Assembly: GCF_034314045.1 (NCBI RefSeq)
Contig: NZ_JAVIWL010000001.1
Span: 806,001-870,000, forward strand
Origin: Glaciimonas sp. CA11.2
GTDB lineage: Bacteria; Pseudomonadota; Gammaproteobacteria; Burkholderiales; Burkholderiaceae_D
Reading direction: 5' to 3'
DNA: 64,000 bases
Shown here: positions 9,506-41,079 of the stretch, piece by piece
How the letters are laid out: every line of letters begins with the position of its first letter
Position numbering within the stretch: position 1 is the stretch's first letter
Translations under genes and position numbers: made by a program
Notes under the pieces: model-generated
Seen by the model: the letters and a program-made list of their open reading frames with translations, nothing else
The model's database searches: none
What the model was told of the DNA's origin: nothing

Positions 9506-9994
9506 GTTATGTCTACCCGAGTATGAAATTTCTGATGCTCTTTGCGAAATAATAATCAGTCTCACGTCTTCTATTAATAACTCGGAATATCAACTTTTAT
9601 TAATTATGCGAGTTACTAATCATAATAGATAAATATCAGGCGTAAAATTTTTTTAGGCGGGACATGAAATAACTCTTTTCCTCCATCACAATTGTGTTTG
9701 CGCACAGAAGTAAAGCCCGATTTGTTTCATCGCGATTGGCAGATACTAACCAGTGGTGATTCGCCAGAATGGTCTAGTGTAAATTTAAATGATGCGAGAT
9801 GGCGATGATTAATTTTGCATGACTTGAATGCGTGCAATAATTTGATGCTGGATGAGTATATTCACAGTGAATAAAAATGTAAACAGGCAGCCAACCAAGC
9901 GCTGCCTTCGCCATCTTCACATAGTTTGCATTGCAATCGCATCGACGATTGCTGAATCGGTCACACGTTTAAAAGCGAAACAAGTGGGTGAGAA
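9506..9994. other. Non-coding gap upstream of cfa
   Basis: No convincing gene in 489 bp. The one notable element is an imperfect inverted repeat, TTAATAACTCG (9574-9584) with CGAGTTACTAA (9609-9619), 24 bp apart and about 70 bp upstream of the cfa start. It could be an operator or a stem in the leader. The rest is AT-rich. Confidence 0.4.
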
Positions 9995-10393
9995 TTATGA
10001 GTGCGCGGTCGGAAGCCACTCTTCCAGAGTCACCTCGAAGGTCATACAAATTGGGTTCGCACCGGCGACAAAGGGGCCACCATAAACGTTACCCTCCGGG
10101 TCGGCAACGACGCCAGTGAGTGATGCAATGAGAGAACCATCATCCTTTGAGCGAACCTCTCCCGCAAGGCTGACAATCTCAACCGCTGGCCCTTTAATCT
10201 GGACATATTTGCCATCCAGCGTTCCCAAACACGCATCCACCAGACTACCCAGCGCCCCCCGCACGAAGGCGTTCTTGAAGCCCTCTGCGATACACAGTTT
10301 CTCGACCCCTAAAACCAGATCTTCGTTAGGTGCGATACGTGCATAAGCAACGCGTCCCATAGTGCCGGTTTCAACGATCGTTGTATCATTCAT
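9995..10393 (-). CDS. PPC-domain (DUF296) protein lacking the family histidines
   Basis: A 132-residue single-domain protein with the plant and prokaryote conserved (PPC/DUF296) fold, recognisable from LVLGVEKLCIAEGF, ALGSLVDACLGTLD, VEIVSLAGEV and the closing FEVTLEEW. The usual HxH and GGH metal ligands are replaced: residues 91-93 read SLT and the GG at 105-106 is followed by Pro. Its start overlaps the preceding PPC gene by 8 nt, so the two are translationally coupled and likely partners. PPC proteins form trimers; bacterial roles are poorly known, and DNA binding is not implied without an AT-hook, which is absent. A cofactor-binding or scaffold role with the acyl-CoA enzymes upstream is inference. 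Confidence 0.8.
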   Translation of the reverse strand: MNDTTIVETGTMGRVAYARIAPNEDLVLGVEKLCIAEGFKNAFVRGALGSLVDACLGTLDGKYVQIKGPAVEIVSLAGEVRSKDDGSLIASLTGVVADPEGNVYGGPFVAGANPICMTFEVTLEEWLPTAHS

Positions 10394-10958
10394 TCGGACT
10401 CTCCGCTTGCGGTTGTATTAAGGGAATATTCGTTTCTGGATCGAAAGTCACGCGTAGTTCAAAGCCATCCAACGAGGTAACCAGCACCGAAATTGGGGTC
10501 GATCCAACAATACAGGTATCAGTAATGATGTGACCGCCCTTCACTGTCCCATTCTCTGTGCGAATAGCCGCATGACAATGCACGATGGGACGACCATGCT
10601 GATTTTTACCCAGCGTAGCATTGCCAAAAATCATGTATGCGCGCCCAGCCTGAATCGGTTTCGAATAAGCGATCATGGCTTGATGAGATGGATCGGGCGG
10701 CGCGACGCAGTATTCGAGATGATCGAAATAACCACCGAGTATCGTGGTCGAGGCGTTCTTGATACCGATCTCGATCAATGGCTTCACAATAGCTTCAAAG
10801 AGACTTAAGCCTGGCACCAGCGTCAAACGGACATGTCTGCCACTGGCGGAATGCCGACTTTGAATACGGACCGGATTAAACGGTCCGGGATGCAGCATCA
10901 TGCGTGGCCGATGCGCCTGTGGCGAGGCATTCGTATGTGACGCGTTCCTGGTGTTCAT
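10386..10958 (-). CDS. PPC-domain (DUF296) protein with intact histidine motif
   Basis: A 190-residue protein. About 35 leading residues are low in structure and rich in His, Arg and Pro; the PPC domain follows. The expected metal ligands are present, His127 and His129 in HCHAAI and His143 in GGHI. The ATG at 10958 is chosen because a GGGGA ends 9 nt before it and it forms an ATGA overlap with the acyl-CoA synthetase stop; a GTG at 10967 would sit on the ribosome binding site. It is the middle gene of a tightly coupled three-gene unit, synthetase, PPC, PPC. Function is unknown, but the coupling argues for work on the same CoA-linked substrate. Confidence 0.82.
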   Translation of the reverse strand: MNTRNASHTNASPQAHRPRMMLHPGPFNPVRIQSRHSASGRHVRLTLVPGLSLFEAIVKPLIEIGIKNASTTILGGYFDHLEYCVAPPDPSHQAMIAYSKPIQAGRAYMIFGNATLGKNQHGRPIVHCHAAIRTENGTVKGGHIITDTCIVGSTPISVLVTSLDGFELRVTFDPETNIPLIQPQAESPNE

Positions 10959-12538
10959 AGATGACACTCCCCTTCTGCCTCCAATAACGCTTTAACCTCT
11001 TTCTTTACAATCTTTCCGTAAGCGGATTTCGGCATTGTTTCCCAAAACACAAACCGACGCGGCCACTTATATTTGGCGATGCGTTCCTCCAAATGTGCCT
11101 GTAACTGTCCGCACTCCACAGTCAAATTGTCTTTGGTAACGATCACCGCAATACCGCTTTCACCCCATTTCGGGTCCGGCAAACCCAGTACCGCGACTTC
11201 CGACACTGCCGGATGGGTCAATAATGCTTCTTCAATTTCGCGCGGGTACACATTAGAACCACCTGAAATATACATATCAGAGGAACGACCGGTGATATAA
11301 AGAAATCCTTCACGATCAACGTGGCCTATGTCGCCGGTATGAAACCAGTCGTCCTTAAATGCCTTGGCATTGGCATCCGGATTGTTGTGATAACCCATGA
11401 ATACGGCGAGGCCGCGTACGCATATTTCGCCGGTCTCGAATGCCGTCAACTTTTGTCCGCTATCATTGAGAATGGCAATCTCCATTCCCGTGCGGGGAAT
11501 GCCGCACGTGCCGACCCGCGCATGCGGATCGTTGTCATCGTCGGTATGCATATAAGTCGGCAAAAATGTAATGTTGCCGGTAACTTCGCCGAGCCCGTAA
11601 TACTGCACCAACACCTTACCGAGCTTCTGTAGCGCGTAACGCTGGTCGGCACGATACATCGGCGCGCCAGCGTAGATGACGTGCTGAAGCGAGCTGTGAT
11701 CGTAACGGTCTACCGATGGATCTTCGGTCAATATTTTGACGATGGTCGGGACAGTAAACATATTATCGATACGATGTTTCTCTACCAGTTGCCAGGCTTC
11801 CTCCGGCACTAATCTTTCGGTCGCAAGCAATACGCTGGCAGCACCGCGGGCCGTATTGACAATCGCGTGTATTCCAGCGCCGTGCGAGAGTGGAGCAACT
11901 ACCAAGGAACGCGAGCGATGCGATAGTCCTGGTAGCAAATCAGCCAGATGGTTGGTCACCACAAACGCCATTTGTCCGTGCGATAACATTCCTGCTTTTG
12001 GATGGCCGGTCGTACCTGATGTATAGAAGAACCAGAGCGGATCTTCATACTCTACCTCGACCTCGTCAAACGGCACTGCACCGCTTGTCGGCGCTGCTGC
12101 AAGAGTCCCATAGTCCATTTCTCCGTCACGCGCATCGGAGAGGGCAATCACATGTGTCAGCGCAGGAGAAACAGCTTTAATAGCATCGACGTAATGTGCC
12201 AAACCACGGTCATACAACATCACCGTCGCACCGCTGGATTGCCCCAGATAAGCGGCTTCCGGTGGCGTAATACGCACGTTGGTAGGAACCCATACCAAGC
12301 CGAGTTTGAATGCGATCCAGGCGCTCTCAAAGATTTGCAAATTGTTGCGAGAATGCACCAAAAACCTGTCACCCTTTTTGACGCCTAATTGATGCAAAGC
12401 ATGCGCTACCGCATCGACGCGGTCATTAATATCTTTCCAGGTAGCGACGTCATCGCCAATAATGATGCCCGCGTCATCGGGAAAACGGCGCGCGACATCC
12501 GATAACAGCCGCCCCAGATTCATGACTTTTTTTAACAT
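10955..12538 (-). CDS. AMP-forming acyl-CoA synthetase
   Basis: A 527-residue member of the ANL superfamily that activates a carboxylic acid with ATP and joins it to CoA. The P-loop-like motif FFYTSGTTGHPKAGM is near residues 165-180, the YYGLGEVT motif in the middle, GEICVRG and the TGDIG hinge-proximal motif follow, and the C-terminal PKSAYGKIVKKE supplies the catalytic lysine. The start at 12538 (MLKKVMNLG) has a GAGCGAGA ahead of it. Medium-chain or aryl acids are likely but unproven. It begins an operon with two PPC-domain genes and follows the thiolase gene after a repeat-filled gap. Confidence 0.93.
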   Translation of the reverse strand: MLKKVMNLGRLLSDVARRFPDDAGIIIGDDVATWKDINDRVDAVAHALHQLGVKKGDRFLVHSRNNLQIFESAWIAFKLGLVWVPTNVRITPPEAAYLGQSSGATVMLYDRGLAHYVDAIKAVSPALTHVIALSDARDGEMDYGTLAAAPTSGAVPFDEVEVEYEDPLWFFYTSGTTGHPKAGMLSHGQMAFVVTNHLADLLPGLSHRSRSLVVAPLSHGAGIHAIVNTARGAASVLLATERLVPEEAWQLVEKHRIDNMFTVPTIVKILTEDPSVDRYDHSSLQHVIYAGAPMYRADQRYALQKLGKVLVQYYGLGEVTGNITFLPTYMHTDDDNDPHARVGTCGIPRTGMEIAILNDSGQKLTAFETGEICVRGLAVFMGYHNNPDANAKAFKDDWFHTGDIGHVDREGFLYITGRSSDMYISGGSNVYPREIEEALLTHPAVSEVAVLGLPDPKWGESGIAVIVTKDNLTVECGQLQAHLEERIAKYKWPRRFVFWETMPKSAYGKIVKKEVKALLEAEGECHL

Positions 12539-18352: not shown

Positions 18353-18390
18353 TTTGGAATATTGAATATCTATTTGCCTATCTATTGACC

Positions 18391-18437
18391 GGCCAGGAAA
18401 GCACAACGCCGCTGGAGTGGTTTTGCCTAAGTCCTAC
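18391..18437 (+). repeat. Intergenic repeat, family A, partial copy 2
   Basis: About 47 bp, from GGCCAGGAAAGCACAACGCC to AAGTCCTAC, align with the inner end and one arm of the repeat at 31-102 and 36107-36212. It fills most of the 101-bp gap between two SDR genes and stops just before the ribosome binding site of the second. Confidence 0.65.
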
Positions 18438-28128: not shown

Positions 28129-28425
28129 TCAGGTATCACAAACACTGCAATTAAACCCTTTGCAATTATGTAAGACACTGCTGCGTGCGGCACCTGCATG
28201 TGCACCCGGACCACCAGCGCCCATACCCGCCAATTGCTCGGCACCGTTCCGAGGTTTCCAACTGTGCGTCGTCTTTAACGCGACATGGCCGCCGCTTAAT
28301 AATGGGGTTGCATTGGTCTGTTGCTGGCAATAAGGACAGCCAATATCGTTGCCCAAAGCCTGCAAACGCAGCAACTTCTCAAATATGCCATCGCAATGGA
28401 TACAGCGAATATCGTAAAGCGGCAT
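28129..28425 (-). CDS. fmdB: FmdB-like zinc-ribbon protein
   Basis: A 98-residue protein. The N-terminal zinc ribbon starts MPLYDIRC, with cysteine pairs C8/C11 and CPYC near residues 31-34, typical of the FmdB regulatory protein family named after the Methylophilus formamidase cluster. A Gly/Ala-rich linker and a C-terminal Cys cluster (HNCKGFNCSVC) follow. It is the last gene of the amide operon, 90 bp after fmdA with a strong stem-loop between. In Methylophilus, FmdB is a proposed regulator of amidase expression; its molecular action is not settled. Confidence 0.88.
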   Translation of the reverse strand: MPLYDIRCIHCDGIFEKLLRLQALGNDIGCPYCQQQTNATPLLSGGHVALKTTHSWKPRNGAEQLAGMGAGGPGAHAGAARSSVLHNCKGFNCSVCDT

Positions 28426-28515: not shown

Positions 28516-29688
28516 CTATCTTCCCCAATAAGCTTTGTCGTTCAACATGCCTTTTGGCGTGATGTCCTGGTCAAAAATGGAGGTCGGTAGCGACACCGTG
28601 CACGCGCAGTTAGGAATATCGACGATTCCGCCGATCCGCCCTTCTACCGGCGCTGCGGTGAGCAACATATAAGCCTGGCTACCGGTATAGCCAAAGTGTG
28701 TCAGATAGTCGATTGCCTTGAGACAGGCCTGACGATAAGCGACCGTCGCATCAAGATAATAGTTGACGCCGTTCTCCACACTGATACCTTCAAAAGTCAG
28801 CCATTGCTCGTAATGCGGCTTGACAATACTCGGCATAAAAATCGGTGACGAAATATTATATTTCGCCATACCGCCTTTGATAAGATCGAAACCGACGTGA
28901 CTGACGCCATCCATTTCAATGGCGCCACAAAAACCGATCTCGCCATCACCTTGCGAGAAATGTAAATCGCCCATCGAGAAACCAGCGCCCTTAACATACA
29001 CGGGGAAGAAAATACGCGTGCCAGCCGATAAATCCTTGATGTCGGTGTTGCCGCCATGCTCGCGCGGCGGCACGGTGCGCGCTGCTTCTCGTGCCATTGC
29101 ATCGAACTTTGCACCACTCAAACCACGCAAAACAGCAGTGCTAGGATCAGGCGGCTTTGCCAGCCCTTTGGCAGCAAGTGGCGCTTCGCGCCGGTTCCAT
29201 TCGGCCAGCAAATCGTGCGACGGCAAACAACCCATCAAGCCAGGATGCGTCAGGCCCGCTATCCGAACGCCGGGAATATGGCGCGAGGTCGCATACAACC
29301 CTTTCAAATCCCAGATCGCTTTGTCGGCATTGGGGAACATATCGGCCAGAAATCCACCGCCATTCTCTTTTGCAAACACACCTGAAAAACCTACCGGCGT
29401 AATTGGCTTAATGTCGAGTAAGTCAATCACCAAGAGATCGCCTGGCTCTGCTCCTTCAACATAAAAGGGGCCTGTTAATGGATGCGCGCGCGTCAGGTCA
29501 ACGTTCTGTACATCCGACACGTCATCATTATCTTTAATCTGCGCATCGAGAAAATCGAGTGATTCGATCATGATCGATTCACCGGGTTTTACCGAGGACA
29601 AAAAGGGAATATCCGGATGCCAGCGGTTATGCCCAAGTTCCGCTTGTTCTGCCAGCGGCACGCCAGGTTTAATTTTGAAATGTTGCAT
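28516..29688 (-). CDS. fmdA: Formamidase/acetamidase (FmdA/AmdA family)
   Basis: A 390-residue cytosolic amidase that hydrolyses short amides such as formamide to acid and ammonia. It follows Methylophilus FmdA along its length: HNRWHPDIP near residues 20-28, EGAEPGDLLVIDLLDI near 78-93, FSQGDGEIGFCGAIE in the middle and VDIPNCACTVSLP near the end. It lies downstream of amiE in the same direction as the urea/amide ABC genes. Two unrelated amidases in one operon suggest a range of amide substrates or a two-step nitrogen release. Confidence 0.93.
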   Translation of the reverse strand: MQHFKIKPGVPLAEQAELGHNRWHPDIPFLSSVKPGESIMIESLDFLDAQIKDNDDVSDVQNVDLTRAHPLTGPFYVEGAEPGDLLVIDLLDIKPITPVGFSGVFAKENGGGFLADMFPNADKAIWDLKGLYATSRHIPGVRIAGLTHPGLMGCLPSHDLLAEWNRREAPLAAKGLAKPPDPSTAVLRGLSGAKFDAMAREAARTVPPREHGGNTDIKDLSAGTRIFFPVYVKGAGFSMGDLHFSQGDGEIGFCGAIEMDGVSHVGFDLIKGGMAKYNISSPIFMPSIVKPHYEQWLTFEGISVENGVNYYLDATVAYRQACLKAIDYLTHFGYTGSQAYMLLTAAPVEGRIGGIVDIPNCACTVSLPTSIFDQDITPKGMLNDKAYWGR

Positions 29689-29772: not shown

Positions 29773-30795
29773 CTAGCTATTCGGAATACCTTCAATCGGA
29801 CACTCTGCAGTTCCGGCAGTGGTACGCGTGAGTGCTTCTGCCTGGCGCCGTGCGGCCTGCGGATCATTGACCCAGGTTTTATAGAAATCGAACGGACAAT
29901 CGGCAACGCCTTCAGGCGCTTCGCCGGAATTGATTTTTCCGGTATAACCACGGTGTAAAAGTTTGTACAAATGGTTTTGCGATTGCCAGTTCCGCCGTGC
30001 ATCGCGAATCTGGCTGACTGATAATTCGGCGTATTGAATCCCCATTTCTTCGGTGCCGCATTCGCCTAATGTGCGTCCGTCAAACCCGACAATGGCAGAG
30101 TGACCGAAATACGAATACACGCCATCGAAGCCCGTCGCGTTGGCGACGGCCACGTAGATGTTATTCATCCACGCCATACATTTGGATACCATTACTTGCT
30201 GCTCTTTCGCTGGATACATGTAACCCTGGCAGCGCACGACTAACTCAGCACCTTTCATCGCGCAATCACGCCAGATTTCCGGATAATTACCGTCATCGCA
30301 AATAATCAGGCTAATTTGCAAACCCTTTGGGCCTTCTGAAACATACGTTTGCTCGCCCGGATACCAGCCTTCAATCGGTGTCCAAGGCATGATCTTGCGA
30401 TATTTTTGTACGATTTCACCGTGATTGTTCATCAAAATCAAGGTGTTGTACGGGACCTTATTCGGATGTTCTTCATGCCGCTCACCTGTCAGTGAAAACA
30501 CACCCCAGACATTCGCAGTGCGGCAAGCCTGTGCAAAAATATCGGTCTCTTCCCCGGGAATGGTGGAAGCGGTCTCCATCATTTCGGTCGGGTCGTACAT
30601 GATGCCGTGACTGGAATACTCAGGAAAAATGACCAGATCTATCCCTGGTAATCCCTGCTTCATACCCACCACCATCGCCGCAATATTGCGCACGTTATCC
30701 AACACTTCTGCTTTTGTATGTAACCGCGGCATTTTGTAATTCACCACTGCGACGCCAACCGCATCTTTGCTTCCTGAAATATCGCCGTGTCTCAT
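29773..30795 (-). CDS. amiE: Aliphatic amidase
   Basis: A 340-residue nitrilase-superfamily enzyme that hydrolyses short aliphatic amides to acid plus ammonia. It aligns nearly without gaps with Pseudomonas aeruginosa AmiE from MRHGDIS onward, and the catalytic triad is at the same positions, Glu59, Lys134 and Cys166 (in [11 protein letters not shown]). Only the last dozen residues differ in length. It lies 83 bp downstream of urtE and 84 bp upstream of fmdA, so it is part of the amide uptake and use operon. In P. aeruginosa, AmiC/AmiR control it; here those genes are absent and the permease-kinase system upstream is the likely control. Confidence 0.96.
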
Positions 30796-30878: not shown

Positions 30879-31574
30879 TTAAACCGATAAATAACGACTG
30901 ATCGTGGCTGCATCCACTCGATCCCTAGCGTCTTCGTACACCAGATTTCCCTTGTCGATGACGAGAAAACGATCAGCAATCTCCATCGTGAAACTCAGCA
31001 CTTGCTCTGAAACAATGATGGTCAGTTCACGGATTTTTCGAATCTCTTTGAGACTACGTGCGATATCTTTGATAATCGATGGCTGGATACCTTCGGTTGG
31101 CTCATCCAGCAACAACACTCTTGGATTAGTTGCCAGCGCGCGGGCAATCGCCAGTTGCTGTTGCTGACCGCCAGACAGATTTCCGCCCTTGCGGCTGCGC
31201 ATATCGAAAAGCACCGGAAACAACGCATACAACTCTTCCGGGACCCTTCCCTGCGCAGCGGCTGGCAACCCGGTCTGGATGTTTTCCAATACTGTCATCC
31301 CAGGAAAAATCATGCGCCCTTGCGGAACGTAAGCCACGCCGCTGGCAACGCGCTGATGGCTTTCCATTTTGGATAACTCCACGCCATCGATCTGGATGCT
31401 GCCGCCACGTGTCGGCAGAATTCCCATGAGCGTTTTGAAGAGTGTGGTCTTGCCCATACCGTTGCGGCCCATGACTGCCACTATTTCCTGTTTGGCGACA
31501 CGCAAGTTGATGTCATGAATGACCTGGCTTTGGCCATAACCGGAAGCGAGATGCGCAACATTAAACATAGTCAA
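30879..31574 (-). CDS. urtE: Urea/amide ABC transporter ATP-binding protein UrtE
   Basis: A 231-residue cytoplasmic ATPase, the LivF-like subunit. Walker A is GRNGMGKTT (residues 35-43), the signature LSGGQQQQLAIARAL and Walker B VLLLDEPTEG follow. The order in this operon (A, B, C, D, E) and length match urea-type Urt transporters. It lies 15 bp downstream of urtD. With amidase genes following it, the system may carry short amides as well as urea, as FmdDEF does in Methylophilus. Confidence 0.93.
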   Translation of the reverse strand: MTMFNVAHLASGYGQSQVIHDINLRVAKQEIVAVMGRNGMGKTTLFKTLMGILPTRGGSIQIDGVELSKMESHQRVASGVAYVPQGRMIFPGMTVLENIQTGLPAAAQGRVPEELYALFPVLFDMRSRKGGNLSGGQQQQLAIARALATNPRVLLLDEPTEGIQPSIIKDIARSLKEIRKIRELTIIVSEQVLSFTMEIADRFLVIDKGNLVYEDARDRVDAATISRYLSV

Positions 31575-31589: not shown

Positions 31590-32354
31590 TCAGTGGCCCA
31601 GATACACTTCGATCACTTTGGGATCGGCCTGGACCGACTCCATGCTGCCTTCGGCAAGGATTTTTCCCTGATGCAGGACGGTCACTTTATGGGCGATACT
31701 TTTAACGAATTCCATGTCATGCTCGATGACAAGCACAGAACGTCCCTTGCTGATGCGACCCAACAACTCTGCGGTCTTTTCACGTTCTGATACGCTCATC
31801 CCGGCGACTGGTTCGTCGAGCATCAACAATTCCGGTTCTTGCATCAGCAGCATGCCGATTTCCAGCCATTGCTTCTGTCCGTGCGATAAAAGGTCAGCTT
31901 GCATGCTTAAATACTCTTCGAGAAAAATATCGATGGCAACCGCCTCAACGCGCTCAATGACATCAGCGCTACGCTTGAACACCAATGCGCCAAAGACTTT
32001 TCGACCGCGAGGAAACGAGAGTTCCAGATTTTCAAATACGGTGAGATTTTCATAGATCGATGGCGTCTGAAATTTGCGTCCAACGCCAGCTTGCACAATC
32101 TCGTGTTCGCGCATTTTTGTCAGTTCACGATTCTTGAACTGAATGCTTCCAGAAGTCGCTTGCGTTTTGCCACAAATTAAATCCAGCACGGTAGTCTTTC
32201 CTGCACCGTTCGGTCCGATGACGACCCGTACTTCATTGCGCTGCACGTACAGATTTAACTTATCGACTGCGGTGAAACCGTCAAATGAGACGGTCAAATC
32301 TTCAATGGCGAGGACCGGATGTTCGGTGGATTCAAATCCTATCGGGTTACTCAT
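31590..32354 (-). CDS. urtD: Urea/amide ABC transporter ATP-binding protein UrtD
   Basis: A 254-residue ATPase, LivG-like. Walker A is GPNGAGKTT (residues 48-56). The signature motif is LSHGQKQWLEIGMLL, with His in place of the second Gly-side residue as is usual in UrtD, and Walker B is LLMLDEPVAGMS. Its ATG overlaps the urtC stop by four bases (ATGA). It pairs with UrtE as the ATPase heterodimer under the UrtB/UrtC permease. Confidence 0.94.
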   Translation of the reverse strand: MSNPIGFESTEHPVLAIEDLTVSFDGFTAVDKLNLYVQRNEVRVVIGPNGAGKTTVLDLICGKTQATSGSIQFKNRELTKMREHEIVQAGVGRKFQTPSIYENLTVFENLELSFPRGRKVFGALVFKRSADVIERVEAVAIDIFLEEYLSMQADLLSHGQKQWLEIGMLLMQEPELLMLDEPVAGMSVSEREKTAELLGRISKGRSVLVIEHDMEFVKSIAHKVTVLHQGKILAEGSMESVQADPKVIEVYLGH

Positions 32355-33565
32355 TTCAACACCTCCAGATTGCCACCGTCAGAATTGGCTAGCGTGCGAT
32401 CAGATGTCGGTATGACAGAGTTTTTCTTCACTGGCACAACTACTGGCGTTGGGAGTAACGATTCTTTTACGGAACGGCGCGGCATCAGTTTTAATAGCCA
32501 TTTTTTACCGTGACTGTCATATAGACCAGCAAGACCATTTGGAAAATACATCACAACAACGATGAACAGTCCACCCATCAGGAACAACCATAATTCAGGA
32601 AACGTTTCAGAAAAGAAGGTCTTCCCAAAGTTGACCAGCAAGGTGCCATACACTGCGCCCAGCAATGACATACGACCGCCCACTGCTGCATAGATCACCA
32701 TTTCGATCGATGGCACAATACCGACAAAGGATGGCGACATAAAGCCAACCTGCAGCGTGAACATTGCGCCACCAATCGCGGAAAAGAGTGCAGCGACACA
32801 ATATACAAATATTTTAAAACTGGCGACGTCGTAGCCGGAGAAACGCACCCGCTCTTCTTTGTCACGCATCGCCATTAACAAACGGCCCAATTTGGACGTC
32901 AGGATAATGCGACCAAACACCACGCAACTCAGCAATAGTCCAGCATTGACGAAATACAACATTAACTTTGCCGAGTCGGTGCGAATATCCCATCCCAGCA
33001 TCGTCTTCAAATCCGTGATGCCGTTAACGCCGCCGGTCAGGCCTTGCTGTCCGATAATCAGAATAGACAGAATGGCGGCTATTGCCTGCGTCACGATGGA
33101 GAAATAGACGTCTCCAACGCGTCGCTTGAACATGGCGATACCGATTATCAACGCCAGTAATGTTGGCACGATCAACACTGCCAAAATAGTAAAACTGAGG
33201 CTATGGAATGGCTTCCACATCATTGGCAATTGGGTGATCTGGTTCCAGTCCATAAAATCTGGAATGCCGGGTGTCGACTGGATTTTTGTGCTGATGGGAT
33301 CAGATGCTTCAAGTTTCAGAAACATCGCCATGCAATAGCCACCCAAACCGAAGAATACGCCCTGCCCCAAACTCAGGATGCCACCATAACCCCAGCACAG
33401 CACTAAGCCCACGGCGACGAAAGCATAAGTCAGATATTTGCCGACCAAATTCAGACGAAAACTATCAAACAAGAGGGGAAACACCACTAACAACAGTACA
33501 CCGAGTATCAGCAGTCCGATAGCACCGGATCGACCGCCCAACAATTTTTCGTATACCGTATTCAT
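32351..33565 (-). CDS. urtC: Urea/amide ABC transporter permease UrtC
   Basis: A 404-residue inner-membrane permease of the LivM type with about ten membrane segments. The family core CWGYGGILSLGQGVFFGLGG is near residues 58-77, and the cytoplasmic coupling segment AMRDKEERVRFSGYDVASFK lies near 231-250. A C-terminal cytoplasmic tail of about 50 residues is charged and Pro/Val-rich. It lies 31 bp after urtB and overlaps urtD. Confidence 0.94.
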   Translation of the reverse strand: MNTVYEKLLGGRSGAIGLLILGVLLLVVFPLLFDSFRLNLVGKYLTYAFVAVGLVLCWGYGGILSLGQGVFFGLGGYCMAMFLKLEASDPISTKIQSTPGIPDFMDWNQITQLPMMWKPFHSLSFTILAVLIVPTLLALIIGIAMFKRRVGDVYFSIVTQAIAAILSILIIGQQGLTGGVNGITDLKTMLGWDIRTDSAKLMLYFVNAGLLLSCVVFGRIILTSKLGRLLMAMRDKEERVRFSGYDVASFKIFVYCVAALFSAIGGAMFTLQVGFMSPSFVGIVPSIEMVIYAAVGGRMSLLGAVYGTLLVNFGKTFFSETFPELWLFLMGGLFIVVVMYFPNGLAGLYDSHGKKWLLKLMPRRSVKESLLPTPVVVPVKKNSVIPTSDRTLANSDGGNLEVLK

Positions 33566-33596: not shown

Positions 33597-34514
33597 TTAT
33601 TTGCGCAGCCGGGCAGAAAACAGACCTTGTGGACGCAACATCAGGATCAGGATCACGGCCGATAAGGTCAACACCTTGGCCATCGAACCGGTCAGGAAAA
33701 ACTCGGCTGTGGATTGGGTCTGGGCAATCGTGAAAGCCGAAGCGATGGTACCAATGAGACTTTGCGCGCCGCCAAAAACCACTACCAGAAAGGTGTCCAC
33801 GATATACAAGGAGCCACTAGTCGGGCCAGTTGAACCAATCGTCGTGAATGCGGCGCCAGCGATACCGGCTACGCCACAACCAAGAGCAAAGGTGCTGCGA
33901 TCAACCTTGCGCGTATTGATGCCGACAGCACCACTCATCACACGGTTCTGGACCGTAGCGCGTACTTGCAAACCCCAGCGCGAACGGAATAACAGCAGAA
34001 AGATACCACCGGTGAGCAACAGGGTTAATCCCATGATGAACACACCGTTGATAGGAATATCGATATTCGAGGTCAGCTTGAAAGAACCCATTAGCCATTC
34101 CGGCAGCGTGGCGCTGACTTCCTTCGCGCCGAACACTGAACGAAACGTTTGCTGCATCGCCAGACTTAATCCCCACGTTGCCAGCAAGGTATCGAGCGGA
34201 CGTTTGTAGAGTCGACTGATCATCAGCCATTCGGCCAGATAACCAACCGCATAGGCCACAACAAACGATAAAACAATCGCGCCGAAGAAATAGTACGGTT
34301 GAAGGCTGGGTGCGTATTGGGTGGTTAATTGGGACAGCAAATAAGTGACGTAAGCGCCAATGGTAAGGAACTCTCCGTGCGCCATATTGATGACGCCCAT
34401 CTGCCCGAAAATGATTGCGAGACCAAGTGCCATCAGCAGTAGCACGCAAAAAACCGATAGGCCGTTAAAGCCCTGCATGACAAAGACGGCACCGAATTCG
34501 GATAGTGAGACCAT
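33597..34514 (-). CDS. urtB: Urea/amide ABC transporter permease UrtB
   Basis: A 305-residue inner-membrane permease of the LivH type with about eight membrane segments. Typical stretches are FGQMGVINMAHGEFLTIGAY (residues 31-50) and the coupling region RATVQNRVMSGAVGINTRKVD, which is UrtB-like rather than LivH-like. It follows urtA after 181 bp that contain a strong stem-loop, a common way to keep the binding protein more abundant than the membrane parts. Confidence 0.94.
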   Translation of the reverse strand: MVSLSEFGAVFVMQGFNGLSVFCVLLLMALGLAIIFGQMGVINMAHGEFLTIGAYVTYLLSQLTTQYAPSLQPYYFFGAIVLSFVVAYAVGYLAEWLMISRLYKRPLDTLLATWGLSLAMQQTFRSVFGAKEVSATLPEWLMGSFKLTSNIDIPINGVFIMGLTLLLTGGIFLLLFRSRWGLQVRATVQNRVMSGAVGINTRKVDRSTFALGCGVAGIAGAAFTTIGSTGPTSGSLYIVDTFLVVVFGGAQSLIGTIASAFTIAQTQSTAEFFLTGSMAKVLTLSAVILILMLRPQGLFSARLRK

Positions 34515-34695: not shown

Positions 34696-35964
34696 TTATT
34701 GATAGCCTTTTGGGAAAGGATTTGGCTCAATCAGATCAGACGTATAGACCACTTTGAACTGACCATCTTTTTGCGCTTCGCCGATCAGCGTTTTGCTCCA
34801 CAGATGATGATTCGGATGAATTTTTACGGTGCCTTCAGGTGAGGCTTTCAGCTCTATTCCAGGCGAAGCGGCAACCACTTTATCGACATCAAAACTACCC
34901 GCTTTTTCGACTGCCGCTTTCCACAACCAAGGGCCCAGATAGGCTGCTTGGGTGACATCGCCGATAACCGCATTCGGACCGTATTTTGCTTTGAATTCGG
35001 CGACGAATTTTTTGTTCGCCGGATTGTCGAGGCTTTGGAAATACTTCATCGAAGCGTAAAAGCCTTCAACGTTTTCACCACCAATGCCGAGCATTTCGTC
35101 TTCTGTGACTGAAATGGTTAGCAGGTTTTGAGTCTTGGCGATGACGCCAGCGGCCTTCAACTGCTTGTAAAACGCCACGTTACTTCCGCCGACCACGTCA
35201 GCGAAGATGACATCCGGCTTTTTCAGTTTGATTTTGTTAATCAAAGAGCCGAACTGCGTATTTCCCAGTGGATAATATTCTTCGCCAACGACTGAGCCTT
35301 TGAGCACGTTTTCGATATGTTTACGCGCAATTTTGTTCGACGTGCGTGGCCAGATATAGTCAGAACCAACGAGGAAGAAGGTTTTTGCTTTCTTCTCTTT
35401 AGCTACCCAATTCAGGCCAGCAAGTACTTGTTGCGTGGCTTCCTGCCCGGTATAAAACACATTCTTCGATTGCTCAAGGCCTTCATAGAAAGTCGGGTAG
35501 TACAACAGACCGTTTTCTTTTTCAAAGATCGGTAATACGGCTTTGCGTGAGGCGGAAGTCCAGCAACCGAATACCGCGGCAACGTGATCGTTTTGCAGTA
35601 ATTTTTTGGCTTTCTCAGCAAAGGTCGGCCAGTCGCTGGCGCCGTCTTCCTGGATGATCTTGATCTTACGTCCCAGAATTCCACCAGCGGCGTTGATCTG
35701 ATCAATCGCCAGACGTTCGGCCTGAATCGAACCAGTTTCGCTGATCGCCATGGTGCCGGTGGCCGAATGTAACTGACCGACGGTAACTTCAGTGTCGGTA
35801 ATCGCTAGCTTGGTCGTGTTGATTTTGGCCGTTGGAAATTGTTGCGCAAAAACGGTCAACGGCAGCGCCATCGCGGCACTGGCAGCCAATCCCAATAACA
35901 TCTTGCGACGTTGAGAAGAAGCGACGGTTGAGGATGAACGACGCGAGGATGGGCTATGCGGCAT
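34696..35964 (-). CDS. urtA: Urea/short-chain-amide ABC transporter substrate-binding protein
   Basis: A 422-residue periplasmic binding protein. The long N-terminal signal carries a twin-arginine-like SQRRKMLLGL, with cleavage near VFAQQ around residue 41. The mature part has the UrtA/FmdD features VGQLHSATGTMAISE and GCWTSASRKAVLPIFE. It is the first gene of the minus-strand operon urtABCDE-amiE-fmdA-fmdB. AAGGAG overlaps the start region correctly (ACAAGGAGCACCGCATG). The protein could bind urea, formamide or acetamide; sequence does not separate these. About 600 bp separate it from the divergent permease-kinase gene. Confidence 0.93.
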   Translation of the reverse strand: MPHSPSSRRSSSTVASSQRRKMLLGLAASAAMALPLTVFAQQFPTAKINTTKLAITDTEVTVGQLHSATGTMAISETGSIQAERLAIDQINAAGGILGRKIKIIQEDGASDWPTFAEKAKKLLQNDHVAAVFGCWTSASRKAVLPIFEKENGLLYYPTFYEGLEQSKNVFYTGQEATQQVLAGLNWVAKEKKAKTFFLVGSDYIWPRTSNKIARKHIENVLKGSVVGEEYYPLGNTQFGSLINKIKLKKPDVIFADVVGGSNVAFYKQLKAAGVIAKTQNLLTISVTEDEMLGIGGENVEGFYASMKYFQSLDNPANKKFVAEFKAKYGPNAVIGDVTQAAYLGPWLWKAAVEKAGSFDVDKVVAASPGIELKASPEGTVKIHPNHHLWSKTLIGEAQKDGQFKVVYTSDLIEPNPFPKGYQ

Positions 35965-36106
35965 GCGGTGCTCCTTGTTAGACGGTTAGGGGGCAAGAGC
36001 TATTTTCTGGCTTTGAGCTTTGGCTTTTGGGCTTGTTCGGAATGGCTCGTTGCGAAATGAAGAGTAAGTTTTATACTGCATCGCAACAATAAGTCATTTA
36101 ACTTAG

Positions 36107-36212
36107 GCGGGAGTTACGTAAACACGCCCCAGCGGCGTTGTGCTTTCCTTGCCGCACTCGCGTGCTGTCTGCGTCGGCACGCCTTGCTGGAGCGAGTTTG
36201 CGTAACTCCCGC
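36107..36212 (-). repeat. MITE-like intergenic repeat, family A, complete copy
   Basis: A 106-bp element with 27-bp imperfect terminal inverted repeats (36107-36133 and 36186-36212, 24 of 27 paired, ends GCGGGAGTTACG). Its inside matches the copies at 31-102 and 18391-18437. A further weak resemblance (GCGGCATTGCTTTCCTA) follows at 36246-36262. It lies between the divergent urtA and permease-kinase genes. No target duplication was evident and no protein is encoded. Confidence 0.75.
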
Positions 36213-36462
36213 GGTCTATTTGTGAGATTTATAAAAGCTCGCCTGCGGCATTGCTTTCCTACACGATGACTGGAATTAGTGAGGGCAAGTTTTACAACGG
36301 GTGTACGTCGCCCGTCAGCGATTTTTATTACAAAAATCTCCACTCCCGCACTGAAACAGTGCACAGCTCGTTCGACAAGAAGGCGCTGCGCACTAAGTCC
36401 CTTAAAAAAACATACAAAACCGCTCATCTCTACGTCAAATGACGTATAAATCCTGGCGGTGT

Positions 36463-36479
36463 CTGGTGTGGAAATTGCT
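36463..36479 (+). promoter_or_regulatory. Possible sigma-54 promoter of the permease-kinase gene
   Basis: CTGGTGTGGAAATTGCT has GG and GC 10 bp apart and a good TTGCT -12 box, but TGGTGTG is a poor -24 box. It lies about 90 bp before the GTG start. Nitrogen control by sigma-54 would suit an amide/urea module. Confidence 0.4.
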
Positions 36480-36569: not shown

Positions 36570-39500
36570 GTGAAAGCTCCTGCATCACAGCGCATCGTTA
36601 AAGTCCGGCGCGATTACAACACTTGGGTCGCTAACGAGACGTTGGAAGATTACGCGTTGCGATTTACGCCTCGGTCATTTCGCAAATGGTCGGAATTTCG
36701 GCTGGCAAATACTGCTTTGGGTGCGGTGTCATTTCTGGCGCTTGAGGCTATCAGCGGGTCGATCACGCTGAATTATGGATTCACGAATGCGTTTTGGGCC
36801 ATCATTTGCGTGACCATTCTGTTTTTTCTGACTGGTTTGCCGATCAGTTATTACGCTGCAAAGTACGGCGTCGATATGGACTTGCTGACGCGTGGCGCAG
36901 GATTCGGTTATATCGGCTCGACCATCACGTCACTGATTTACGCTTCGTTTACGTTTATATTTTTTGCACTGGAAGCGTCGATCATGGCGCAGGCGGTCGA
37001 GCTCTATTTCGGACTCCCTGTGGTGCTGGGTTACATCGTCTGTTCGTTGATTATCATTCCGATGGTGACCTATGGCATTACGCTGATCAATCGTCTGCAA
37101 ATGTGGACGCAGCCAGTCTGGATCACGCTGTTAGTGTTGCCGTATATCGCCGTACTGCATAAAGAACCGGATGCGATTTCAAATTTGATGTCCTTTGCCG
37201 GTCGTGCTGAAGACGGTACGGGATTCAATGTCATGTTGTTCGGTTCAGCCGCCACCGTGGCGTTTTCGCTCATTGCGCAAATCGGTGAACAGGTCGACTT
37301 TTTGCGGTTTCTGCCAGAAAAGACTCCCGCCAATCGCGTACGCTGGTGGATCGCTTTGTTACTTGCTGGTCCCGGCTGGATCTTGATCGGTGCAGCCAAG
37401 ATGTTGGGTGGCGCGCTGTTGGCCTTTCTGGCGATTCAACATGAAGTGCCGATGGATCGGGCAATTGAACCAACCCAAATGTACCTGATTGCGTATCGCT
37501 ATGTATTTTCTGATCCTGCGTGGGGATTAGCCGCGGTCGCGGCGTTTGTGGTGGTGTCACAAATCAAGATCAATGTGACGAATGCGTATGCCGGTTCGCT
37601 GGCGTGGTCGAATTTTTTCGCCCGCCTGACGCACAGTCATCCGGGGCGTGTCGTGTGGTTAGTATTCAATGTTCTGATCGCGGTGTTGTTGATGGAACTT
37701 GGCGTCTTCAAGGCGCTGGAGCATGTATTAGGTTTGTATTCATTGGTGGCGATTTCGTGGATCGGTGCGGTCGTGGCAGATCTGGTGATTAACAAACCGT
37801 TGGGGCTGAGTCCGCCGCATATTGAGTTCAAACGCGCGCATTTGTATGACATCAATCCGGTCGGCGTCGGTGCGATGCTGTTGGCGTCGATATTGGCTGG
37901 CATTGCAATGGCAGGCGTATTTGGGCCTGTGGCTAAAGCGCTTTCGCCGTTCATCGCATTGTGCAGCGCGATGCTGATTGCGCCGGTGATCGCATGGTTA
38001 ACCAAAGGGCACTATTACATTGCACGACCTAATATCTTGTCCGACTTACCAACCAATGCATTGACCGAAAACGCCCCCGAGCAACGCGAATGCGTCATTT
38101 GCGAAAAACAATTCGAAACCCCTGACATGGCGCACTGCCCGGCCTATCAGGGCGCGATTTGCTCGTTATGCTGTTCGCTGGATGCCCGTTGCAATGATCG
38201 CTGCAAGACCGAATCGCGGATGCCGGATCAGATTCTACATGCGATGCGCGCCGTATTACCGATGCGCTTCACCAGCAAATTGAATACCCGGATTGGGCAT
38301 TATCTGATTGTTTTCGGTCTGCTATCGGCTGGGCTGGCGTTGATTTTGTGGACGCTGTATTACCAGCAACTATCCAGCCTGACAGCCCCGCTCAACGTTG
38401 CAATGACGGCATCAACTGGCACGCCCGATTCTATGGCGAGCGTTTTTATCAAGTTGTTTTCGGTATTAATTGTTGTGACTGGCGTCGGCACGTGGTGGCT
38501 GATTCTGACCAACGAAAGCCGCAAGGTGGCGCATGAGGAGTCGGAGCGCCAGACTAATCTGTTATTGCAGGAAATCGAAGCCCATAAGCACACTGATGCC
38601 GAATTGCAGCGCGCCAAAGAGGCGGCGGAGGCAGCAAATCTGGCGAAGAGCCGCTTCGTCACCGGCATGAGCCACGAACTGCGCACGCCGCTTAACAGCA
38701 TTCTCGGCTATGCGCAGATTCTGCAAATGGACGCTGCGCTGCCAGCGGGGCGTCGGGATGCGGTGAGTGTGATTCGTAGCAGCGGCGAACATCTGTTAAG
38801 TTTGATTGACGGGCTGCTCGATATCGCCCGGATCGAAGCTGGCAAAATGCGCTTAGCTTCCGATGAAGTGCCGCTGAGCGAATTTTTAGATCAAATTGTC
38901 GACATGATCGCACCGCAAGCCGCACAGAAAGGCTTGCAGTTTCAGTTTGATAAAGCGGAACGGTTGCCAGAAGTCGTTCATGCCGATCAGAAAAGGCTAC
39001 GTCAAATTTTGATTAACCTGCTCGGTAATGCGGTGAAGTTTACGGATAGTGGTGGCGTCGTTTTACGCGTGCGTTATGTCAGGGAAATGGCTTATTTCGA
39101 GATTATCGATACTGGTATCGGAATTGGCGCTGATGATCTGACGCGCATCTTTCTGCCGTTTGAACGCAGCAATGCGGCCAATCTGCGGGATGATATCGGC
39201 ACTGGTCTGGGTCTCGCGATCAGCAGCATGTTGACGCACATCATGGGCGGTCAACTCACTGTTAACAGCGAACCTGGTCGCGGCAGCACGTTTCAATTAA
39301 AAATCTATCTGCCGAGGGTGAATGTGCCGCGTCCACGCTTAAAGTTGGAAGATCAAATGTCTGGTTATCGCGGAGCCAGAAAACGTATACTCATCATCGA
39401 CGATCATGCTTCGCAACGCGCCGTGCTGCATGCGATGCTGTCACCGCTGGGTTTTATCATCGCGCAAGCGGACAGCGGCGCAGCGGGATTGGCGGCCATT

Positions 39501-40088
39501 GCCGTGGCGGCGAGTGCCGAGGCGGCGGGTGTCGGGCAACTGCCCGATTTGATCTTGCTTGATATTTCGATGCCGACGATGGATGGCTGGGCGGTATGTC
39601 AGACGATTCGTGCACGCGGACATGCCGACTTGCCAGTCATTATGGTGTCGGCCAGCGCCATTGACAGCGGACCGGGACGTCAGGAAGCAATGCTGCACAC
39701 CGACTTTGTGGTAAAGCCGGTGTCGTTCAATGAACTACTCTATAAAATCCGCCTACATCTTAAACTGGACTGGATCGCGGAGGAACCGAAAATACCAGAA
39801 CAAAGTACGCAAGAATCAACACCGCAAGTTCAGGATAAAGTTAAGCCTGAAGTACCAGCCAAGGTGATGTTTCTGACGCCATCGCAAGAAAAACTTGAAA
39901 CCTTGCTGGCGCTGGGCGAGATCGGTTACGTCAAAGGTATTCTGCGACGACTAGATGAAATCGCGCAGCAGGATGCGTTGTATTTGCCATTCACCAGCGA
40001 CATGCGTCGGCTGGTAAAACGGTTTCGGCTCAATGACTTTAACAACCGTATTAAGGAGATGATGCGTGAGGATGTCGACAAGGTTTGA
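36570..40088 (+). CDS. NCS1 permease-histidine kinase-receiver fusion sensor
   Basis: A 1172-residue membrane protein. Residues 1-490 form a full NCS1 permease (cytosine/purine/allantoin type) with about twelve membrane segments. A Cys-rich segment with CxxC pairs spans Cys508-Cys545. Two more membrane segments follow (about 575-655), then a coiled linker, the HisKA domain with His702 in MSHELRTPLN, the ATPase with Asn816 and DTGIGIG and GTGLGLA, a receiver with Asp998 in LLDISMP, and a short helical tail. Like CbrA (SLC5 permease-kinase), it probably reads out transport or binding of a nitrogen compound. It starts at GTG with AGAAGAGAA ahead, overlaps the response regulator by 23 bp and faces the urtABCDE-amiE operon, its likely target. 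Confidence 0.9.
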   Translation: MKAPASQRIVKVRRDYNTWVANETLEDYALRFTPRSFRKWSEFRLANTALGAVSFLALEAISGSITLNYGFTNAFWAIICVTILFFLTGLPISYYAAKYGVDMDLLTRGAGFGYIGSTITSLIYASFTFIFFALEASIMAQAVELYFGLPVVLGYIVCSLIIIPMVTYGITLINRLQMWTQPVWITLLVLPYIAVLHKEPDAISNLMSFAGRAEDGTGFNVMLFGSAATVAFSLIAQIGEQVDFLRFLPEKTPANRVRWWIALLLAGPGWILIGAAKMLGGALLAFLAIQHEVPMDRAIEPTQMYLIAYRYVFSDPAWGLAAVAAFVVVSQIKINVTNAYAGSLAWSNFFARLTHSHPGRVVWLVFNVLIAVLLMELGVFKALEHVLGLYSLVAISWIGAVVADLVINKPLGLSPPHIEFKRAHLYDINPVGVGAMLLASILAGIAMAGVFGPVAKALSPFIALCSAMLIAPVIAWLTKGHYYIARPNILSDLPTNALTENAPEQRECVICEKQFETPDMAHCPAYQGAICSLCCSLDARCNDRCKTESRMPDQILHAMRAVLPMRFTSKLNTRIGHYLIVFGLLSAGLALILWTLYYQQLSSLTAPLNVAMTASTGTPDSMASVFIKLFSVLIVVTGVGTWWLILTNESRKVAHEESERQTNLLLQEIEAHKHTDAELQRAKEAAEAANLAKSRFVTGMSHELRTPLNSILGYAQILQMDAALPAGRRDAVSVIRSSGEHLLSLIDGLLDIARIEAGKMRLASDEVPLSEFLDQIVDMIAPQAAQKGLQFQFDKAERLPEVVHADQKRLRQILINLLGNAVKFTDSGGVVLRVRYVREMAYFEIIDTGIGIGADDLTRIFLPFERSNAANLRDDIGTGLGLAISSMLTHIMGGQLTVNSEPGRGSTFQLKIYLPRVNVPRPRLKLEDQMSGYRGARKRILIIDDHASQRAVLHAMLSPLGFIIAQADSGAAGLAAIAVAASAEAAGVGQLPDLILLDISMPTMDGWAVCQTIRARGHADLPVIMVSASAIDSGPGRQEAMLHTDFVVKPVSFNELLYKIRLHLKLDWIAEEPKIPEQSTQESTPQVQDKVKPEVPAKVMFLTPSQEKLETLLALGEIGYVKGILRRLDEIAQQDALYLPFTSDMRRLVKRFRLNDFNNRIKEMMREDVDKV

Positions 40089-41079
40089 CCGGCACGTGGT
40101 GTTGATCGTCGACGATGTGCCAGACAATCTGGCACTGTTGTCGGATGCATTGGACGACAGCGGCCATATCGTTCTGGTTGCCACCGATGGTGCCAGCGCG
40201 TTAGAGCGCCTGCAACGCATTACGCCAGATCTGATTCTGCTGGATGCGGTGATGCCGGGCATGGATGGCTTTGAAACGTGCCGGCGCATCAAGCTGTTGA
40301 AGCATGTTGAGCACGTGCCTGTAGTGTTCATGACTGGCCTGACGGAGACCGAACATGTGATCAAAGGGTTTGAGGTTGGTGGCATTGATTACGTCACCAA
40401 GCCGATCCGACCGCAGGAAATCGTCGCTCGCATCGGCGCGCATATTAAAATGGCGCGCATGATGTCCCAAACAAGGGGCGCAATTGATGCGGCCGCTAAT
40501 GCGGTGATCGTGCTTGACGCCAATGGGGCGCCGCTGTGGCAATCGAGCAAGGCGTCACATTGGCTGGAAAAATACTTTTCAGTCGCCGCCGATCACACAC
40601 GGGTTTCCAGACTGCCGTCTCAAATGCAATTCTGGCTCAATGAAAACCTTGTATTGGAACGACAAAACGGACCAGCCACGTTGCCGTCAATGCCTTTTCA
40701 GCCGTTAGTATTGAAGCGTGACGAAGAGGAATTGCACATCCGCCTGGAGAGAAATGCGCGCACCGGAGAATTGACCCTTTTGCTGGAAGAAAAGAGCGTC
40801 GTGCCCGCAGATAACGCCCGTATTCCAAGCCTGCTGGAACTCACCGGAATAGGCGGAGTCAACGCAGCGCAGCGAGAGCAATATCGTTTGACGCCGCGCG
40901 AGACGGATGTTCTTAACTGGCTGGCAAAAGGCAAAACCAACCGCGACATAGCGGAAATTCTGGGGATGAGTCCACGTACAGTGAACAAGCATCTTGAACA
41001 CATTTTTATCAAGTTAGGGGTAGAAACACGCTCTGCCGCAGTCGGTATGGCAATCAATCATCAATGTCTCAGCCATTGA
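40066..41079 (+). CDS. Response regulator with LuxR-type HTH
   Basis: A 337-residue transcription factor. The receiver has the acidic pair Asp16-Asp17, phosphoacceptor Asp60 in LLDAVMP and Lys112. A central PAS-like segment (about 150-200, AANAVIVLDANGAPLWQ) precedes the LuxR/NarL helix-turn-helix at about 270-330 (LTPRETDVLNWLAKGKTNRDI, in part). The 23-bp overlap with the permease-kinase gene makes it the cognate output. It likely controls the divergent amide/urea operon. The PAS-like insert is unusual for NarL-type regulators and could bind a ligand. Confidence 0.92.
   Translation: MRMSTRFDRHVVLIVDDVPDNLALLSDALDDSGHIVLVATDGASALERLQRITPDLILLDAVMPGMDGFETCRRIKLLKHVEHVPVVFMTGLTETEHVIKGFEVGGIDYVTKPIRPQEIVARIGAHIKMARMMSQTRGAIDAAANAVIVLDANGAPLWQSSKASHWLEKYFSVAADHTRVSRLPSQMQFWLNENLVLERQNGPATLPSMPFQPLVLKRDEEELHIRLERNARTGELTLLLEEKSVVPADNARIPSLLELTGIGGVNAAQREQYRLTPRETDVLNWLAKGKTNRDIAEILGMSPRTVNKHLEHIFIKLGVETRSAAVGMAINHQCLSH

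Follow-up and report, generated by a model that had tools for sequence, protein, structure and literature searches.

Some bacterial sensor kinases are built onto a transporter. As the earlier note on this DNA had stated, SLC5-type fusions of permease and kinase such as CbrA exist, and are described in the excerpted source (PMC13022988). The LuxR-type regulator CrbR requires an imperfect inverted repeat, of which TACTACCATCGTCGAAT and TACGACTAAAGTCTAAA are examples given in an excerpt of the corresponding paper (PMC5715377). Here we analyse a 64,000-nucleotide stretch of Glaciimonas sp. CA11.2 (contig NZ_JAVIWL010000001.1, positions 806,001 to 870,000, forward strand; hereafter the window), in which a hybrid histidine kinase with an NCS1-like permease domain is encoded opposite a divergent operon for the uptake and hydrolysis of urea and amides. 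Judged by sequence comparison, this protein is probably a urea/short-amide transceptor kinase whose partner regulator activates the uptake and hydrolysis genes.

In Dechloromonas aromatica a 1131-residue histidine kinase and a 308-residue receiver protein lie beside UrtA (PMC2907700), and in Ectopseudomonas a hybrid kinase and a LuxR regulator lie by urtABCDE (PMC13296017); these genome papers list both pairs without investigating them. A 2026 paper suggests that the transporter of an amiE-fmdA-fmdB-urtABCDE cluster imports formamide, and names no kinase in the part of the text consulted (PMC13209695). The open-licence PMC literature yielded no study of an NCS1-type kinase, in agreement with the earlier note, which knew of no characterised NCS1 counterpart. 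The permease-kinase class described below is real and widespread, forms a coherent whole and has no characterisation in the open-licence literature covered.

Architecture of the kinase and its regulator

The kinase gene (36570..40088, plus strand, as are all features of the kinase and regulator genes) has a GTG start and encodes 1172 residues. An NCS1-like permease domain (36687..38039, approximately residues 40-490) is followed by a segment with eight cysteines (C508, C511, C523, C531, C534, C535, C541 and C545; 38091..38204). The secondary structure of the AlphaFold2 (AF2) model then indicates two further helices (38289..38519; approximately residues 574-609 and the start of 620-720), the second of which continues into the kinase coiled coil, the end of this second membrane part being an estimate. 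Pfam models identify HisKA with His702 (38643..38843), HATPase_c (38985..39311) and a receiver with Asp998 (39387..39749), the complete set of a hybrid histidine kinase. The protein ends in a helical tail (AF2 model; residues 1106-1170, 39885..40079) that contains no histidine. The partner gene (40066..41079) encodes a response regulator composed, according to Pfam, of a receiver with Asp60, a middle region and a GerE/LuxR helix-turn-helix. The earlier note had described this domain order in a single protein, the 23-bp overlap between kinase and regulator, and their divergence from urtABCDE-amiE-fmdA-fmdB; all were confirmed. Two relatives (L115, 885 residues; L119, 883 residues) are shorter kinase-like open reading frames (ORFs) with fmdA approximately 5 kb away and, judged by length alone, may lack the receiver.

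The identity of the permease was established by profile and fold comparison. PF02133, the Pfam model for NCS1, gave 0 matches in the genome and none for kinase residues 1-522 at E<=10, and was dropped as the test for NCS1. In hhalign the permease aligned to NCS1 with a probability of 96.6 (E 5.6e-10, 401 columns), while among other LeuT-fold families SSF (SLC5) reached 3.2, so that the domain does not qualify as SLC5, and APC 0.4. When the AF2 model was compared with PDB structures by Foldseek, the best fold matches of the permease in the VIA-align listing were CodB and Mhp1, with SLC5/CHT1 and other LeuT-fold families at lower ranks, outranked but not eliminated by this comparison; the rows listed by Foldseek itself are all kinase structures, the NCS1 rows being those of the VIA-align listing. 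When PDB sequences were searched with the permease profile (hmmsearch), no transporter was returned, and the two chance zinc-finger matches covered only the cysteine segment. PF02133 is carried by 5 of 120 listed relatives that lack the kinase, and a remote relative (L141) matches it at 36.4 bits. The full NCS1 permease proposed in the earlier note is thus borne out by profile and fold, and we regard the domain as NCS1-like, not as a filed member of PF02133.

Conserved neighbourhood and a shared palindrome

Relatives of kinase residues 1-670 number at least 7,999, since all 7,999 scored candidates (those sharing most words with the query) matched at E 0.001. Among species-level genomes, relatives were found in 50/300 sampled within the order, 17/321 within the class, 53/398 within the phylum and 30/145 within the family; these samples overlap and include the genome of the window, and a few matches are weak and kinase-less. 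Neighbourhoods were compared in 135 fetched stretches of up to 20 kb (set A) and 80 named contigs (set B), which may overlap in species and were never summed. Leaving aside two kinase-less loci (L060, L075), weak standalone matches (L140-L144) and one split gene (L145), set A comprises 127 stretches; its count of 129 genes includes the kinase-less copy of L063 and both kinases of L066, and the count of 81 for set B includes two kinases in L278.

Genes for Urt, FmdA, AmiE or urease accompany the kinase in 96/104 loci of set A and 50/59 of set B with at least 8 kb on each side, and in 111/129 and 71/81 when all loci are counted. Grouped by family label, such a locus occurs at least once in 36 of the 47 families sampled. 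The regulator lies 3′ of the kinase in 120/128 (set A) and 74/81 (set B) of the cases with room for it, and urtA starts divergently less than 1 kb from the kinase in 65/123 and 33/78 of the cases with room, respectively. Because the other flank of the window (5′-nucleotidase, malic enzyme) was retained in only 1/104 and 0/59 loci, this conservation does not reflect general synteny. Loss of the neighbourhood across homologues had been named beforehand as grounds for rejecting a link between kinase and operon; instead, the neighbourhood proved to be conserved.

Loci lacking urtA, fmdA and amiE numbered 28 in set A and 35 in set B, of which 10 and 25 have urease instead and 3 and 3 have further Urt genes, leaving 18 and 10 without any of these. 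A separate function for such loci was partly rejected, many of them having urease genes. Family models confirm UreC in both L016 and L027, and in L016 also UreD, UreG and HupE/UreJ; urease elsewhere was assigned by tblastn.

In the window the divergent operon runs on the minus strand from urtA, encoding a urea/short-amide ABC binding protein (34696..35964; TIGR03407), through urtB (33597..34514), urtC (32351..33565), urtD (31590..32354) and urtE (30879..31574), all five subunits exceeding their NCBIfam cut-offs. These are followed by amiE, an aliphatic amidase (29773..30795; NF009802, 706 bits), fmdA, a formamidase (28516..29688; NF045496, 559 bits), and a gene labelled in the earlier note as an fmdB-type small protein, which has no NCBIfam match (28129..28425). 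PF01425 amidases are encoded at three places in the genome.

Word counts in the kinase/urtA intergenic regions of 95 loci and of the window, 96 in all, brought out a dominant palindrome, TACGTCA-NN-TGACGTA. It is present with at most one mismatch in 54/96 and at most two in 71/96 of these regions, compared to 0 in Markov-resampled copies. The window holds a perfect copy, TACGTCAAATGACGTA, at 36431..36446, a predicted operator of the regulator, and no other site in the 5.5-Mb genome comes within one mismatch; sites with up to two mismatches occur at control level (15 versus 17 per strand). The palindrome also precedes genes that lie away from the kinase. When urtA is more than 1.3 kb distant, a site with at most two mismatches is found within 350 bp upstream in 16/33 cases (Fisher 4e-21), and for fmdA at such distances in 13/94 (Fisher 5e-10). 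The controls gave 0/120 for urtB, 0/52 for amiE and 13/1416 for other ORFs, the last being mechanical ORFs of at least 200 residues, some of which are presumably not genes. These results suggest that the partner regulator binds the palindrome.

A degenerate copy nearer to urtA, TAAGTCATTTAACTTA (36090..36105), has three mismatches and retains its symmetry. A same-genus relative (L120) has two palindrome sites, one by each gene, and the site corresponding to 36090-36105 carries one mismatch there. Local alignment of 36061-36105 with L120 scored 23, compared to at most 13 in 300 shuffles, while global alignment placed the degenerate copy elsewhere. Directly after this copy is a 106-bp inverted-repeat element (36107-36212; 27-nt arms, 89% complementary) without a BLAST match in the L120 locus; similar copies of the element lie at 30-99 and 18390-18434 of the window. 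With its proximal site degenerate and the element adjoining it, urtA may be regulated differently in this strain.

Two weaker elements share the intergenic region. A sigma-54-like -24/-12 element faces the kinase (36464..36479, plus strand), its pattern having been picked after the fact. While the strict sigma-54 core was found 4 times facing the kinase (shuffles 4.0) and 7 times facing urtA (3.7) in the 96 regions, a looser pattern chosen from the window itself gave 12 versus 0.8 and 1 versus 0.4, respectively. A weak NtrC-like box, GCAC-N7-GTGC, lies at 36348..36362; such boxes occur in 22/96 regions versus approximately 2 in shuffles, and both elements are also readable in L120. They weakly suggest that nitrogen control is superimposed at the same promoters.

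Several observations concern the spread of the system. A Klebsiella pneumoniae IncFIB plasmid (L294, NZ_MH745929.1) carries the kinase, the regulator, urtABCDE-formamidase and a one-mismatch palindrome; the regulator is missing from its gene table and was found by tblastn. A permease relative is present in 340 Klebsiella plasmid records. Two contigs labelled cyanobacterial (L231, a Leptolyngbyaceae metagenome-assembled genome, and L243, Phormidium) carry a relative of the kinase permease, possibly through horizontal transfer or contamination. The split gene of L145 (G1001:C1:984980-986946) is a kinase relative that breaks near residue 348 into two frames which overlap; a urt cluster adjoins it, and the split is probably that of a pseudogene or a sequencing error.

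Kinase-less relatives, conserved residues and the cysteine module

At least 5,111 of 7,996 scored candidates (E<=0.001) lack the kinase, most being 520-580 residues long with approximately 45% identity to the kinase permease; this description is drawn from the 120 best-listed proteins. Databases name them allantoin or cytosine permease. Urease, formamidase or amidase genes were found in 7 of 10 inspected surroundings. Urease genes accompany the permease in L075, Acinetobacter ursingii (L286), Klebsiella pneumoniae (L288) and L297 (ureG, ureF), while in Moraxella osloensis (L290) the permease has a divergent fmdA. Two loci (L063, L296) combine a kinase-less permease, fmdA-amiE and the kinase, and in each a copy of the palindrome with one mismatch lies between the kinase and permease genes. 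An Acinetobacter baumannii copy (L287) is accompanied only by a kinase and regulator, in a part of the record that is unannotated, and those of Streptomyces (L289) and L060 (8-kb contig) have neither urea/amide genes nor a kinase beside them. Within the urease operons of L286, L288, L297 and L075 the permease gene adjoins ureE or ureG. The allantoin/cytosine permease labels in L286 and L288 are possibly misannotations. A tree built from 47 permease domains places those with the kinase (29) and without it (16) on opposite sides of one branch (support 97/99); the great length of the two outgroups leaves its root uncertain.

When 246 kinase and 120 kinase-less rows (366 in total) are aligned together, 47 permease positions are invariant, several of them polar; R108, F112, G113, G116, E135, Q237, E240, Q241, D243, K333, N335 and N338 are included. 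By profile alignment, at 17% identity, E135 occupies the position of the glutamine in transmembrane helix 3 (TM3) of the NCS1 set. What we take to be the ring-stacking tryptophan positions of Mhp1 map to Phe131/132 and Leu234 of the kinase permease. From this mapping we infer that a small polar ligand would fit the pocket better than a flat ring.

The eight-cysteine segment is invariant in 51 kinases and in 27 more diverse ones, and the complete pattern is present in 120/120 listed kinases. Among the 120 best-listed kinase-less proteins, CxxC...CxxC is retained in 119 and the full eight cysteines in 0; the C523 position is cysteine in 41/120, and C535, C541 and C545 are found in none. The kinase-less copies of L063 and L296, each beside a kinase, hold all eight, and that of L287 four. 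As a trait of kinases alone the eight-cysteine module was ruled out by L063 and L296, and for the same reason this form is not a mark of fusion. In the place after the transporter where a four-helix STAC domain would be expected in an SLC5/STAC kinase, the AF2 model has the cysteine-rich module, at low to middling confidence, and Pfam gives no match. A remote 538-residue permease (L140, G1061, 9464-11077, minus strand; 24-26% identity) has its own cysteine-rich tail, with genes for an alpha/beta hydrolase and a Rieske oxygenase nearby. Judging from L140, the cysteine module may predate the urea-type group.

A model of the kinase and its place among known systems

Taken together, the computed anatomy, homology, neighbourhood and palindrome, with its association with urtA and fmdA, are consistent with a model in which the permease domain would bind urea or a short-chain amide, for example formamide, and may have kept the ability to transport it. 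The ligand is deduced from the neighbours, and the direction of the signal, the phosphotransfer route, binding of the palindrome by the regulator and any transport are likewise postulated. Alternating-access movement would reach HisKA by way of the cysteine module and the two further helices, and His702 would phosphorylate Asp60 of the regulator directly, with Asp998 of the kinase receiver tuning or draining the signal. The phosphorylated regulator would then bind TACGTCA-NN-TGACGTA and switch on urtABCDE-amiE-fmdA-fmdB; other targets may be the permease-fmdA-amiE operons of L063 and L296, and perhaps urease in some lineages. A broader proposal, to which we give about an even chance, is that NCS1-fold urea/formamide permeases with a C-terminal, probably metal-binding, cysteine module have been fused to kinases to form a large class of nitrogen transceptors. 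It entails that the cytosine and allantoin names are wrong, that the permease cycle is the sensor and that one palindrome serves across Proteobacteria.

A number of observations weigh against the model. The palindrome (at most two mismatches) is present in only 10/53 urease-type loci; in Methylosinus (L295), where the kinase, the regulator and urt genes are all present, no site appears at three mismatches either, and the A. baumannii pair (L287) has just a three-mismatch site. None of the expected neighbours were found in 8/104 (set A) and 9/59 (set B) well-flanked loci, or in any locus of 11 of the 47 families, and a kinase-less Streptomyces copy (L289) without urea or amide neighbours leaves room for other substrates. 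Distribution is patchy, with only one (G1061) of four other same-genus genomes having the kinase. Moreover, PF02133 does not recognise the kinase permease, and the mapping of its pocket depends on the 17%-identity profile alignment.

The earlier note had proposed a transport-coupled sensor of amides, urea or nucleobases that controls the divergent operon. The neighbourhood, the palindrome at urtA and fmdA and the kinase-less relatives support urea and short amides. Sensing of nucleobases, hydantoin or allantoin, with the urea and amide genes induced as downstream steps of purine catabolism, would accord with the NCS1 fold and with the allantoin or cytosine permease names of the kinase-less relatives, but appears highly improbable. 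The genes found beside the kinase are those for urea, amides, formamide and urease, and no nucleobase or purine-catabolic gene was identified in the annotated neighbourhoods examined, in which no systematic search for one was made. In addition, the presumed Mhp1-type aromatic positions are replaced by Phe131/132 and Leu234 and seem unconserved, and the TM3 glutamine by the invariant Glu135, which would argue against a ring-stacking ligand. The phosphorelay between the two receivers suggested by the earlier note found no support either. Such a relay (His702 to Asp998 to HPt to Asp60, with a free-standing HPt encoded elsewhere) is suggested by the pairing of a hybrid kinase with a regulator that has its own receiver. 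Pfam detected no HPt domain in either protein and none is named in the annotated neighbourhoods of relatives, a genome-wide HPt search not having been made. The last histidine of the kinase lies at or before residue 1063, and its tail is not an HPt because residues 1106-1170 lack histidine. With the two possibly receiver-less relatives also pointing away from it, a relay is improbable, and direct transfer from His702 to Asp60 would be simpler.

It is also conceivable, although unlikely, that the protein serves urea and amide sensing while the actual signal is membrane energy, pH, nitrogen state or UrtABCDE, the permease fold being mainly an anchor. For CbrA, growth needed the full-length protein, transport through the SLC5 part alone not being enough, according to the excerpted account (PMC13022988), and the NtrC-like boxes with the sigma-54-like element point to general nitrogen control of these promoters. 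However, an anchor would not need the 47 invariant permease positions, several of them polar. We retain the urea/short-amide transceptor as the probable function.

Like CbrA and CrbS, which act with CbrB and CrbR, the Glaciimonas protein is a transporter domain fused to a kinase and, like CrbS, it is a hybrid kinase paired with a regulator of the LuxR type. The TACGTC-N4-GACGTA layout resembles the ACTU inverted repeat of CrbR as given in part of that paper (PMC5715377), with binding of the palindrome being a prediction here. It differs from these SLC5/STAC kinases in that its transporter is NCS1-like (hhalign 96.6 versus 3.2) and has the cysteine module and two additional helices after it, and in its putative urea/amide ligand class. 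KsAmt5 is likewise a nitrogen-source transporter made into a kinase sensor, but has an Amt fold and another ligand, according to the portions of the papers available (PMC5764959, PMC8534201). Compared to the NCS1 transporters CodB and Mhp1, the permease domain is unmatched by PF02133, and its TM3 glutamine appears to have become glutamate and its aromatic positions to have changed.

At the level of the operon, fmdCABDEF of Methylophilus methylotrophus similarly joins formamidase with short-amide/urea ABC uptake, and a review, in the excerpt available, reports these genes to be inducible by formamide and urea (PMC10781810), which fits the proposed mechanism. The same excerpt mentions a putative positive regulator without any permease-kinase (PMC10781810). 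In AmiC/AmiR an aliphatic amidase is also under control, but through an AmiC-AmiR complex and antitermination without a kinase, as described in part of the source (PMC13209695). Some cytosine/allantoin permeases beside urease genes, as in the Klebsiella and Acinetobacter records, are suggested to be urea or formamide permeases. While the transporter-kinase fusions described in the literature found, as far as its available parts go, are of SLC5 and Amt types, the NCS1-like kinases would form a further family, with thousands of relatives and a predicted ligand class and operator. With the same fold and the same polar residues present both with and without a kinase, such a class would let one ask how a transport cycle becomes a phosphorylation signal.

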